This document shows positions 34,936 through 39,581 of a DNA stretch of 64,000 bases, one piece after another. Origin of the DNA: Candidatus Desulfofervidaceae bacterium (GTDB taxonomy: Bacteria; Desulfobacterota; Desulfofervidia; Desulfofervidales; Desulfofervidaceae); contig JALWFG010000021.1 of assembly GCA_027038965.1 (NCBI GenBank), forward strand, positions 124,001 to 188,000, in the 5' to 3' direction. Each line of letters starts with the position of its first letter. Within the stretch, counting starts at the first letter, position 1. Below the pieces are notes generated by a model, which did no database searches, was not told the origin of the DNA, and was given only the letters and a program-made list of their open reading frames with translations. A program made the position numbers and the translations under genes.

Positions 34936-35139
34936 TAAATATCTTCTCTTCGCCCAAGTTGTTTAATTATTGAAGGCAAGAAATAAAACAGAAATTTATA
35001 TAGCTAACACAACTTGGAAGAAATTCCAGGCTTCATCCGAAGCAAAACACGAATTTTGGGTTGAAAATCTTCTTGACTTGTGGTAAACATAAAAGGTAAA
35101 AACGTTGTAAGTCATGCTCATCTAAGGGAGATATCAGAC

Positions 35140-35544
35140 ATGGGTAAACTGGTTCGCTTTGGTATCTGCATGGATGAAACTCTGCTGAAGAATTTTGATT
35201 CCTTTATCCATAAAAAGGGATTTAAAAATCGTTCTCAAGCCATTAGCCAATGTTTAAGAGACTTCCTTTCTCAAGAACTAGATGAAACTCCAGAACAAGA
35301 AACAACAGGCATTATTATTTTAGTTTACAACCATGATAAAAGGGAACTAGTTGACACCTTGATAGACCTCCAACATGAGTTTGTAGAAAACGTCATTTCT
35401 ACTCTTCATGTTCACCTAGACCATCACAATTGTCTGGAAATAATTGTGGCCAAAGGAGTGGCAAAAAATTTAAAAAGCCTTGCAGATAAGTTAACTAGTG
35501 TAAAGGGAATAAAACAAGGCTATTTCAAGGCCGTCATTCCTTAA
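35140..35544 (+). CDS. nikR: Nickel-responsive transcriptional regulator NikR
   Basis: Ribbon-helix-helix repressor that binds DNA when nickel fills its C-terminal ACT-like domain. From the chosen ATG the protein is 134 residues: N-terminal RHH (LVRFGICMDETLLKNFD...NRSQAISQCLRDFL) and nickel ligands His79, His90, His92 and Cys98 in HVHLDHHNCLE, spaced as in E. coli NikR. AAGGGAGAT lies before this ATG; an upstream GTG-type extension is unlikely. A TTGACT-18-TAAAAA promoter may lie at 35073-35102. No nickel transporter gene is adjacent. Confidence 0.92.
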   Translation: MGKLVRFGICMDETLLKNFDSFIHKKGFKNRSQAISQCLRDFLSQELDETPEQETTGIIILVYNHDKRELVDTLIDLQHEFVENVISTLHVHLDHHNCLEIIVAKGVAKNLKSLADKLTSVKGIKQGYFKAVIP

Positions 35545-35697: not shown

Positions 35698-35726
35698 TTG
35701 ACACCAAAAAACATTTTTGATAGAAA
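35698..35726 (+). promoter_or_regulatory. Promoter of the fluoride-riboswitch operon
   Basis: Perfect TTGACA (35698-35703), 17 bases, TAGAAA (35721-35726). The predicted start site about seven bases downstream falls on the first base of the riboswitch aptamer. Confidence 0.7.
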
Positions 35727-35730
35727 AAAT

Positions 35731-35780
35731 TAGGCGATGGGGTTCGCCTCAAATGCCTTTTTAGGCTGATAACCCCTATC
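35731..35780 (+). promoter_or_regulatory. Fluoride (crcB) riboswitch aptamer
   Basis: The sequence follows the fluoride aptamer consensus: GGCGATG, GGGGTT, CGCC closing P1, the single-stranded CAAA, hairpin TGCC/AGGC, then TGAT and AACCCC. The hallmark pseudoknot is a perfect six pairs, GGGGTT (35739-35744) with AACCCC (35771-35776). The third gene end downstream includes crcB, the standard fluoride-channel target, which supports the call. Confidence 0.9.
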
Positions 35781-35806
35781 CTCTCATAAGGATAGGGGAT
35801 TTTTTG
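35773..35806 (+). terminator. Riboswitch-controlled intrinsic terminator
   Basis: Ten-base perfect stem CCCCTATCCT / AGGATAGGGG with loop CTCATA and a T6 tract. Its 5' arm reuses the CCCC of the aptamer pseudoknot, so fluoride binding and terminator formation are mutually exclusive. The 3' arm may also hold the Shine-Dalgarno for the ATG at 35809. Confidence 0.88.
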
Positions 35807-35808
35807 TT

Positions 35809-36978
35809 ATGAAACACATTCGTTTGGCCTACCAATTCATTATTCTGTTCGGGTTAGTAAGCCTCTGTGGTGATATTGTTTACGAAGGTGCCCGAGCAGT
35901 TATAGGCCCATTTTTTGCCACCTTGGGTGCTAGTGCCACCGTTGTAGGAATGGTCGCAGGGCTAGGTGAATTTTTGGGTTATGGATTTCGGCTAATTTCT
36001 GGTTTTCTCTCCGACAGACTAAAGAGATATTGGATGTTCACCTTTTTGGGTTATGGCCTTCTCTTGAGTGTGCCCTTTTTGGCCTTTGCAGGAAATTGGC
36101 CTTTGGCGGCCATGTTTATCATTTTAGAACGCATGGGCAAGGGAATCAGAAGTCCTGCTAGAGATGTCCTACTTTCACATGCTACTGCCAAGGTAGGACA
36201 TGGGACTGGGTTTGGACTGCATGAGGCCTTGGATCAAATTGGCGCCGTTGTTGGCCCCTTGATTGTTGCTTTAGTCTTCTCTTTAAAAAATAGTTATCGT
36301 TTGGGGTTTGCTACCCTATTTCTTCCGGGGTTGCTAACCCTTTTCTTTCTAACCGTGGCCTATAAGAAAAGTGCCACATTAACCTTAGGCCCAGGCATCA
36401 AGGCCAAATTTAAAAGGCCAAAAGGAACTAAGTTGCCTATACCTTTTTGGCTTTATTTAGGCTTTTCTTTTTTCAGTGTGATGGGCTTCGTTACCTTTCA
36501 ATTGATATCTTATCACTTTAAAATCCATTCCATTATTAGTCCAACGCAGATTGCCCTGTACTACGCCTTGGCCATGGGGGTAGATGCCATTGCCGCCCTG
36601 ATTATAGGGAAGATATACGACCAAATTGGATTTAAGTGCCTGTTTATCATTCCCTTTCTGACGTGTTTTTTGCCGTGGTTTGCCTTTTCATTTAATTGCC
36701 ATTTGGCCCTTGGAGGCGTCATCCTTTGGGGAATAATCATTGGTATCCATGAAACCATCATGCGGGCCGGGGTAGCTGATTTGATACCTCTTGATTTTAG
36801 GGGAACTGCTTATGGGCTGTTTAATACCTCTTATGGGCTGGCTTGGTTTATAGGCAACAGTATTTTGGGTCTTCTTTATAGTCGTAAGCCAAATCTTGTT
36901 TGGCCATTTGTTGTACTGGTAGAAACCACTTCTGTCATCTTTATATGGAAAATGATATGGAGATTGAGAAATGTCTAA
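35809..36978 (+). CDS. MFS transporter under fluoride riboswitch control
   Basis: 389-residue major facilitator with about 12 hydrophobic segments. The loop 2-3 motif reads GFRLISGFLSDRLKR (motif A: G...D..D/SDRLKR), and an RMGKGIRSPARD stretch follows in the next segments. It is the first gene after the fluoride switch and overlaps crcB by eight bases, so it is likely made when fluoride is high. Its cargo is unknown: it could export fluoride-related or other anions. The initiation region sits directly beside the terminator hairpin. Confidence 0.85.
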   Translation: MKHIRLAYQFIILFGLVSLCGDIVYEGARAVIGPFFATLGASATVVGMVAGLGEFLGYGFRLISGFLSDRLKRYWMFTFLGYGLLLSVPFLAFAGNWPLAAMFIILERMGKGIRSPARDVLLSHATAKVGHGTGFGLHEALDQIGAVVGPLIVALVFSLKNSYRLGFATLFLPGLLTLFFLTVAYKKSATLTLGPGIKAKFKRPKGTKLPIPFWLYLGFSFFSVMGFVTFQLISYHFKIHSIISPTQIALYYALAMGVDAIAALIIGKIYDQIGFKCLFIIPFLTCFLPWFAFSFNCHLALGGVILWGIIIGIHETIMRAGVADLIPLDFRGTAYGLFNTSYGLAWFIGNSILGLLYSRKPNLVWPFVVLVETTSVIFIWKMIWRLRNV

Positions 36979-37342
36979 TTGGGTTTGGGTAGGAATTGGA
37001 GGTTTTATTGGAGCCATTTTTCGGTATTTATTTAGTGGCTGGATTTATCGCCTTATTGGAACAAACTTTCCCCATGGAACCTTATTTGTCAATGTTTTGG
37101 GCTCATTTTTTCTATGTTGGTTTGTTCCGGCCAGTATGCACACCTTTAATATCAATCCCGGCTTGAGGGCAGCCATCACGGTAGGATTTTGTGGAGCCTT
37201 TACAACTTTTTCTACCTTCAGTTTTGAAACAATTTCCCTTTTACAAGATGGGCACCTTTGGCTTGCAGTTATAAATATTATGAGCAACGTTGGCCTTTGC
37301 ATTTTAGCTGGCTGGATAGGCTTTGGGTTATCTCAACTGTAA
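36971..37342 (+). CDS. crcB: Fluoride channel CrcB (Fluc)
   Basis: 123-residue dual-topology fluoride channel that lowers cytoplasmic fluoride. Four hydrophobic segments. Conserved GGFIGAIFRY, GTLFVNVLGSFFL with the pore Asn, and GFCGAFTTFSTFSFE with the Phe-box and central sodium-site region. Length is normal. The gene sits in a riboswitch operon with the MFS gene upstream and DUF190 downstream. Confidence 0.95.
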   Translation: MSNWVWVGIGGFIGAIFRYLFSGWIYRLIGTNFPHGTLFVNVLGSFFLCWFVPASMHTFNINPGLRAAITVGFCGAFTTFSTFSFETISLLQDGHLWLAVINIMSNVGLCILAGWIGFGLSQL

Positions 37343-37354
37343 AGGGGGAGAGGT

Positions 37355-37705
37355 ATGAAAAAGAGAAAAATTGAAGGTGACCAAATTTGCATGCGAATTT
37401 ATATTGGCGAAAATGACAAGTATCAAAGCAAGCCGCTTTATAAAGCAATTGTAGATTTGCTTCGACAAGAGGGATTCGCAGGGGTTACTGTGTATCGGGC
37501 CATTGCAGGCTATGGCCCAAATAGCTTTTTTCGAACCTCCAGTCTGCTTAGGCTATCGCTAGATTTGCCCATTGTCATAGAGGTAATTGAAGAGCCTTTA
37601 AAGATAGATGCCCTTTTGCCAAAACTAGATGAGATGGTCAAGGCAGGTATGATTACCTTACAAAAGGTGCATGTCCTCATTTATCGTTCTGATAAAATCA
37701 GCTAG
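37355..37705 (+). CDS. DUF190 family protein
   Basis: 116 residues. MRIYIGENDKYQSKPLYKAIVDLLRQEGFAGVTVYRAIAGYG and DLPIVIEVIEE are typical of DUF190, a PII-like small protein often encoded beside crcB. GGGGGAGAGG precedes the start. It may regulate or assist the fluoride channel; this is inferred only from gene neighbourhood. Confidence 0.9.
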   Translation: MKKRKIEGDQICMRIYIGENDKYQSKPLYKAIVDLLRQEGFAGVTVYRAIAGYGPNSFFRTSSLLRLSLDLPIVIEVIEEPLKIDALLPKLDEMVKAGMITLQKVHVLIYRSDKIS

Positions 37706-37732
37706 AATAAATTGGAAAACAGGGCGATAAAG

Positions 37733-38491
37733 ATGATGCCCAACTGGCTTGATACCCAAAAGGTTCTGGAATTTGTTTGGGATCGCTATAAAGAAAATGG
37801 CGGTTTTGCCATGACCCCTCTACTACCTGCCACACTTGAGGATACCTATTTGGCGGTGAAGATTTTAAGGCTTTTAAAGGTCCCTTTACCAAAGGAAACT
37901 AGAAATTATATCTTGGGCCTTAAATGGGAAGATCATTCCATGCCCAAGAATTTATATCAACTGGCAAGGCTTTATAAGGTGATAAAGATAGACATCCCCA
38001 AAAGCAGGCTTTTACAACCTATTAAATCTTTAGCTCAAAGTCATTTAGGGCTTGAACACTATAGCTATCTGTTGCGTATAACTAAGCTGTGCCGTTTGGA
38101 CAACATTAAGGCCAAAATTTGCTCGGCTTTATCTATTTCTCCTAAAAACTGGCAGGTATTGAAGGAGCTTTATTTCTATTGGTATATTGCTAGAATTTGC
38201 AAGCTTAATTTGTCTCCCCAAAACATTCTTTGGATAAGGCAATGTCAAAATGGAGATGGTGGCTTTGGATTTATGCCCCATACCACCTCATTTTTGGAAA
38301 ATACTTATTATGCCTTAACTATGCTTTCCTTCTTCAAAAAGATGCCTTTAAGACCAGACCTATGTCTCAAATTCATCCGATGTTGTTATATACCTAACAA
38401 AGGAGCCTTTGCCCGCAGTCCAGGTGGCGTAGTCTTTCTAGAAAGCACCTATTATGGATTAGCAGCCTTAAGTTTGTTGGATCCAATATAA
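37733..38491 (+). CDS. Terpenoid-cyclase/prenyltransferase-like repeat protein
   Basis: About 252 residues with repeats of the alpha/alpha toroid type: GGFAMTPLLPATLEDTYLAVKIL, then NGDGGFGFMPHTTSFLENTYYALTML and AFARSPGGVVFLESTYYGLAAL. These resemble the QxxxGGF-type repeats of prenyltransferase beta subunits and squalene-hopene cyclases, but the protein is too short to be a full cyclase. I start at ATG 37733 in preference to a TTG 21 bases earlier. It is 27 bases past DUF190, so it probably belongs to the fluoride operon. The function is unknown. Confidence 0.7.
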   Translation: MMPNWLDTQKVLEFVWDRYKENGGFAMTPLLPATLEDTYLAVKILRLLKVPLPKETRNYILGLKWEDHSMPKNLYQLARLYKVIKIDIPKSRLLQPIKSLAQSHLGLEHYSYLLRITKLCRLDNIKAKICSALSISPKNWQVLKELYFYWYIARICKLNLSPQNILWIRQCQNGDGGFGFMPHTTSFLENTYYALTMLSFFKKMPLRPDLCLKFIRCCYIPNKGAFARSPGGVVFLESTYYGLAALSLLDPI

Positions 38492-38499
38492 AAAAATGG

Positions 38500-39581
<1,082 letters not shown>

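Follow-up and report, generated by a model that had tools for sequence, protein, structure and literature searches.

Results

Gene content of the locus

The window, a 64,000-nt stretch of a Candidatus Desulfofervidaceae contig (JALWFG010000021.1), carries on its forward strand a fluoride riboswitch followed by four genes, all on the same strand. The first gene (35809..36978) encodes, according to a domain search, an MFS transporter (MFS_1, 389 aa) that is not a known fluoride exporter, a point that the original prediction did not remark on. It overlaps by 8 nt the gene of a CrcB/Fluc fluoride channel (36971..37342, 123 aa), which is a true CrcB: it reaches 98.9 bits for PF02537 (threshold 32.9, E 2.5e-28) and 96.5 bits for TIGR00494 (threshold 80.45), and it matches solved Fluc structures. 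A gap of 12 nt separates crcB from the gene of a DUF190 protein (37355..37705, 116 aa; PF02641, E 3.4e-36), followed by the gene of an alpha/alpha-toroid protein with the prenyltransferase-beta fold (37712..38491; PF00432 and AlphaFold), which measures 259 aa from a TTG at 37712 and whose true start may instead be the ATG at 37733.

Beyond the toroid gene and ahead of a GAPDH gene, a promoter-like site (10/12) was found at 38500. This new promoter-like site, the 8 nt overlap and the 12 nt gap together support the reading of the four genes as a single operon, and their co-transcription is probable. As in other CrcB/Fluc operons with DUF190, and likewise at the loci L077, L214 and L228, DUF190 directly follows crcB (the DUF190 profile used for locus annotation was built from two sequences); the window differs by the addition of the MFS gene in front and of the toroid gene behind. 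Directly upstream of the riboswitch lies a NikR-type nickel regulator (35080-35544), and NikR homologues are also found near riboswitch-linked toroid genes at two other loci (L074 and L200).

Aptamer and terminator

A covariance-model scan of the window placed a full-length RF01734 match at 35724-35785 on the forward strand, with 50.0 bits against a gathering threshold of 34 (E 7e-11), and this is the sole match above the cut-off in the 2.19 Mb genome. The fluoride riboswitch named in the original prediction, for which an RF01734 covariance search had been suggested as a check, is thereby borne out. The P1 hairpin AGGCG/CGCCT (35732..35749; pairing read in the sequence as 35733-35736/35745-35748) holds in its loop the 5′ pseudoknot strand GGGGTT (35739-35744), and the P3 hairpin GCCT/AGGC (35755..35766) pairs 35755-35758 with 35763-35766. 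The 3′ pseudoknot strand AACCCC (35771..35776) forms six Watson-Crick pairs with GGGGTT, of which four are GC (67%). P1 is seen in the sequence, the scan and the covariation described below, P3 in the latter two, and the 3′ pseudoknot strand in the sequence and the covariation. Read on the minus strand, P1 (35732-35749) also resembles a terminator (AGGCGAACCCCATCGCCT then AATTTTTTCT).

To examine the helices, we aligned 29 riboswitches above the cut-off; they come from 20 genomes of the phylum, one of which is that of the window. We found that P1, P3 and the pseudoknot are paired in 96.8% of cells compared to 86.5% in shuffles, and that the pseudoknot alone is paired in 100% of cells, in every one of the 29 riboswitches. 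Double-sided changes occur in 50 cells (14.4 in shuffles), the covariation score was reached by none of 500 shuffles, and sliding the partner columns by 1 to 3 positions lowers the pairing to 38-59%.

Immediately downstream, a ten-pair stem (35773-35798) closed by the loop CTCATA and followed by an A and T6 (35800-35805) forms an intrinsic terminator (35773..35805). The stem-loop has a free energy of −17.0 kcal/mol at 37 °C, and the same hairpin (10 pairs, 6 of them GC) is the strongest match in a terminator scan of the region. The CCCC at 35773-35776 is both the end of the pseudoknot strand and the base of the 5′ arm of the terminator, and therefore the two structures are mutually exclusive: the expression platform competes with the pseudoknot, as is characteristic of the class. 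All of these elements, including the shared CCCC and T6, are present as originally described. Aptamer and terminator together fold at −33.1 kcal/mol (z −3.96), a stability equalled by none of 200 shuffles. The same-genus relative keeps the riboswitch, the terminator and the crcB-DUF190-toroid genes, and its terminator stem differs from that of the window by one compensated T/A difference.

Such an architecture is familiar. The available sections of a study of fluoride riboswitches describe mutually exclusive domains whose overlap comprises a six-base-pair pseudoknot and the terminator base, and transcriptional ON control is the usual mechanism of such an arrangement (PMC11077080); terminators overlapping the motif were already noted in the accessible text of Weinberg et al. 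2010 (PMC2864571). On the strength of these published layouts, the pseudoknot/terminator arrangement is standard, and the riboswitch is a sound new example of a large known class, ordinary in layout. It shares with the riboswitches of Bacillus cereus crcB and Thermotoga petrophila the RF01734 aptamer, the six-pair pseudoknot whose 3′ strand is also the terminator base, a downstream CrcB and, by membership in the class, presumably the ON logic. The GC content of the pseudoknot (67%) lies between the 50% of B. cereus and the 83% of T. petrophila quoted in the same available sections (PMC11077080), and the window differs from both in having a Shine-Dalgarno sequence inside the terminator arm and MFS as the first gene.

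Promoter

A probable sigma-70-type promoter (35698..35726) was read in the sequence, with TTGACA at 35698-35703, a 17 nt spacer and TAGAAA at 35721-35726, and with an extended −10 TG at 35718-35719 in the form TGa. The original prediction spoke of a consensus promoter that places the transcript start on the aptamer; the −35 box, the spacing, the extended TG and the predicted start are as described, but the wording was generous, as the −10 matches only 4/6 positions and misses the final T. For this reason the promoter does not appear in the list from our promoter scan, whose 8 matches are at chance level (8.1 in shuffles). We retain it as probable because the same-genus relative (L077) has one at the same place (TTGATT-16-TAAACT), likewise with TG-n and at a nearly equal distance from the aptamer. 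Transcription is predicted to start near 35732-35733, which are the first bases of P1 and leave almost no leader.

Shine-Dalgarno sequence within the terminator arm

Ahead of the MFS gene, a Shine-Dalgarno-like sequence TAGGGGAT (35793..35800, forward strand) lies within and just beyond the terminator's 3′ arm and is spaced 8 nt from the ATG at 35809. It had been described as the only good Shine-Dalgarno sequence for this gene: it is real and the best one there, but of modest, average strength. With −6.4 kcal/mol against the assumed anti-Shine-Dalgarno sequence, it equals that of crcB (−6.4), pgk and DUF190 have stronger ones, and it narrowly misses the top 5% of random positions (−6.9). As the ATG stands only 10 nt beyond the hairpin, any Shine-Dalgarno sequence must fall in the hairpin arm.

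We compared this arrangement with the expression platforms of 49 riboswitches read from fetched loci, a chosen rather than random set made up of loci from the covariance search and loci met later. A terminator on the pseudoknot strand was found in 18 of the 49, and in 5 of these 18 the called start codon lies within 15 nt. Only that of the window is an ATG; the other four are TTGs that were assigned mechanically and lie within or close to the U-tract. Elsewhere in the phylum, for example at L074 and L201, the Shine-Dalgarno sequence is hidden in the anti-pseudoknot arm without a terminator, and in the same-genus genome G001 a separate Shine-Dalgarno sequence lies outside the hairpin. The window resembles translational fluoride riboswitches in that its Shine-Dalgarno sequence is paired by the pseudoknot's competitor strand, and it differs from them in also having a terminator with T6.

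Origin of the MFS gene in the operon

The same-genus genome G001 has crcB, DUF190 and toroid, in this order, behind the riboswitch, and its MFS gene lies elsewhere, outside the operon. Among seven genomes searched, crcB was present in two only (G000 and G001), and these are also the two of the five genomes of the family that have the riboswitch; MFS is present in four of the five. In a tree of 68 MFS proteins, which was built quickly and contains several long branches, the window MFS groups with the copies of G001, G002 and G003 (97% SH-aLRT), and among these four copies the window's alone is riboswitch-linked. This grouping with unlinked copies from the same family makes capture of the window MFS by the switch probable: most likely, judging from gene order and tree, a resident MFS gene was inserted between riboswitch and crcB in the window's lineage. 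Loss of the MFS gene from the G001 operon is a possible alternative.

The MFS family across the phylum

Across 395 genomes of the phylum, the family of the window MFS has 66 matches, distributed over 64 genomes. Each of the 66 neighbourhoods was examined, some of them on short contigs, with riboswitches called by model R2 and that of the window by Rfam. Counting riboswitches of at least 20 bits within 5.5 kb, 16 of the 66 MFS genes have one upstream on the same strand, 3 have one on the same strand downstream only, 2 on the opposite strand and 45 none; at 34 bits these numbers become 13, 3, 2 and 48. Fewer than one such placement is expected by chance, on an estimate of about 250 riboswitches summed over the 395 genomes (~1.2 Gb). 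On the MFS tree, linkage to the riboswitch requires 13 changes, at least 10 of them forced by well-supported branches, compared to 16.9 in shuffles; the 19 linked rows of this tree include L253 (same-strand riboswitch of 17.7 bits), L263 (riboswitch at ~6 kb) and L169 (a named record that is not among the 66).

The gene orders observed are riboswitch-crcB-(DUF190)-antiporter-Usp-MFS (L270, L280 and L282), riboswitch-dynamin-antiporter-Usp-MFS (L258 and L263) and riboswitch-HEAT-toroid-MFS (L224). In G044 and G056 a second, distant type of MFS immediately follows the riboswitch. Against solved structures the window MFS alone gave no match, and the family profile matched NorA only, with one half lying upon the other and no hint of a substrate. 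Assignment to the tetracycline efflux MFS was rejected (33.1 bits against an NCBIfam equivalog cut-off of 475).

The toroid family

The AlphaFold model of the toroid protein is an alpha/alpha toroid with a pLDDT of 93.7, and its closest structure is the RabGGTase beta subunit (3c72_B; Z 23.5, rmsd 2.6 over 243 residues). It shares this fold with the prenyltransferase beta subunits of RabGGTase and FTase and differs from them at the zinc site. The zinc ligands of RabGGTase are Asp, Cys and His; in the HMMER alignment, which is weak locally, F194, E196 and S245 occupy their places in the 259-aa window protein. By this alignment the fold of a prenyltransferase comes without its zinc ligands, and because Phe, Glu and Ser stand in for the ligands, the protein is unlikely to be a prenyltransferase. 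Besides glycines, D44, T45, S193 and R235 are invariant in 33 toroid homologues.

Our search returned 56 toroid matches in 53 of the 395 genomes. These represent 54 loci, four matches being halves of two split or divided ones, and 52 loci were counted after leaving out the partial matches of G003 and G157; on the stretch of G157 (L297) no gene was recognised. Toroid-like matches in named records, including long cyclase-like proteins (L187, L188 and L191-L195), were excluded from the linkage counts. Seven of the 52 loci supplied riboswitches to model R2, all seven of them also above the Rfam cut-off. At 20 bits and within 5.5 kb, a riboswitch lies upstream on the same strand at 23 of the 52 loci, downstream only at 2, on the other strand at 1 and at 26 there is none; at 34 bits the counts are 22, 2, 0 and 28. 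On the toroid tree, linkage requires 10 changes, at least 5 of them forced, compared to 18.3 in shuffles. At ten loci no recognised gene stands between the switch and the toroid gene (L076, L087, L092, L199, L201, L202, L203, L207, L208 and L296; the L092 match is weak, at 21.8 bits).

At L081:2758-3596 (G049 contig 32) the toroid gene is split into two overlapping frames in a frameshift-like manner. A small HEAT-repeat protein recurs at L081:3593-4066, L069, L224 and L228, and it adjoins the toroid gene at L081, L224 and L228.

Other genes behind fluoride riboswitches

In this phylum a dynamin-like GTPase gene often lies behind a fluoride riboswitch (L071:7018-8799 on the minus strand, L075, L078, L083, L089, L176, L217, L220, L232 and L258), called by a Dynamin_N domain at L071 and by similarity at the remaining loci. 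Genes for Na+/H+ exchangers, with a Usp gene usually next in line, are found behind the riboswitch at L068, L069, L074, L080, L082, L270, L280 and L282, and the link to antiporters is already published. Five genomes (G277, G335, G179, G317 and G372) have 5 to 11 fluoride riboswitch matches each, and at L075, L270, L280 and L282 divergent riboswitch pairs about 100 nt apart are followed by operons in both directions.

Discussion

We consider it very probable that a four-gene fluoride-defence operon of MFS, crcB, DUF190 and toroid is driven by a riboswitch that senses fluoride and acts mainly as a transcriptional ON switch. The ligand, the direction of switching and the cotranscriptional exchange of strands are assigned by analogy with the known class. 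Without fluoride, the ten-pair terminator would form in the nascent RNA by drawing the CCCC from the pseudoknot, and the polymerase would halt at T6, immediately ahead of the MFS start codon; read-through transcripts would keep the Shine-Dalgarno sequence closed within the same hairpin. With fluoride, the aptamer bound to Mg-fluoride would keep AACCCC in the pseudoknot, the terminator would be unable to complete, and the operon would be transcribed with its Shine-Dalgarno sequence freed. The poor −10, the near-absent leader and the average Shine-Dalgarno strength count against this explanation. A further point against it is that the available sections on the work of Hertz et al. give importance to a wobble at the top of the pseudoknot with the E. 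coli polymerase (PMC11077080); the window pseudoknot has no wobble at its top and could therefore switch weakly at 37 °C. The weak −10 would also suit a decayed or chance aptamer ahead of a constitutive operon; the full-length covariance match, the fold z of −3.96 and the compensated terminator difference from the same-genus relative make this highly improbable.

The original prediction had suggested that transcription and translation could both be switched, with a hairpin that terminates and also hides the Shine-Dalgarno sequence in read-through, so that fluoride would open both steps together. This dual control is possible but rather doubtful. The ATG 10 nt past the stem, the position of the best Shine-Dalgarno sequence in the 3′ arm, the window's being the only close ATG among 18 terminator platforms, and the related loci, such as L074 and L201, with the Shine-Dalgarno sequence in the anti-pseudoknot arm and without a terminator all argue for it, as do the 28 nt that separate termination site and start codon in most natural fluoride riboswitches according to the available portion of a large in vitro survey (PMC13273304). 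Its strength near only the best 5% of random positions is consistent with an incidental Shine-Dalgarno sequence, and the separate one in G001 suggests that the layout may just reflect where the MFS gene landed. Moreover, when the CCCC is held in the pseudoknot, a six-pair remnant of the stem persists (−4.5 kcal/mol at 37 °C, −0.9 kcal/mol at 60 °C), which speaks against dual control.

A broader question is whether crcB is the only gene that the riboswitch serves, with MFS and toroid as passengers whose work is unrelated. The lack of a riboswitch within 5.5 kb at 45 of the 66 MFS relatives and 26 of the 52 toroid loci fits this idea, as does the free-standing MFS in the rest of its family. Against it stand the directional excess of same-strand upstream riboswitches, the frequent position of the toroid gene as the first recognised gene behind the switch, and the scatter of linked copies over the MFS tree and the toroid tree; the excess and the scatter speak for repeated recruitment or retention. 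We regard the passenger explanation as conceivable, though somewhat unlikely. Both families recur in the fluoride regulon of the phylum and, as far as gene neighbourhoods can tell, seem to be repeatedly used components of the fluoride response.

For comparison, the accessible text of a 2024 review puts the share of exporters under riboswitch control at about 15% for Fluc and 30% for CLC-F (PMC11139923), figures counted differently from our 16/66 for MFS and 23/52 for toroid. Among the associations that the review lists are exporters, Na+/H+ antiporters, pyrophosphatase, enolase and formate hydrogen lyase, and within its main text the words MFS, facilitator, prenyl, dynamin, DUF190 and universal stress do not occur (PMC11139923). 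In the literature searched, we found no report that links MFS or toroid to a fluoride riboswitch; the main published gene list (Baker et al. 2012) lies outside that search, and its supplement could hold the association. Nothing was found in the literature searched on a fluoride riboswitch with DUF190, prenyltransferase or dynamin either. One match for fluoride riboswitch and major facilitator was set aside: as far as the available part of that paper goes, its MFS belongs to an FMN riboswitch.

Based on these patterns of linkage, we tentatively propose, as a possible reading, that the fluoride response of these Desulfobacterota-type bacteria includes two uncharacterised families. One would be an MFS, of the window type and of the second type, recruited repeatedly by the riboswitch, that may expel fluoride itself, a complex containing it or an ion that fluoride disturbs. 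The other would be a zinc-less toroid with a possible role in sensing fluoride stress or in protecting a target sensitive to fluoride. A riboswitch of known ligand labels the genes downstream of it as fluoride-responsive and so provides a testable gene list, and the families that recur behind the switch, MFS, toroid and elsewhere the dynamin-like GTPase, are candidates for unknown steps of fluoride resistance.
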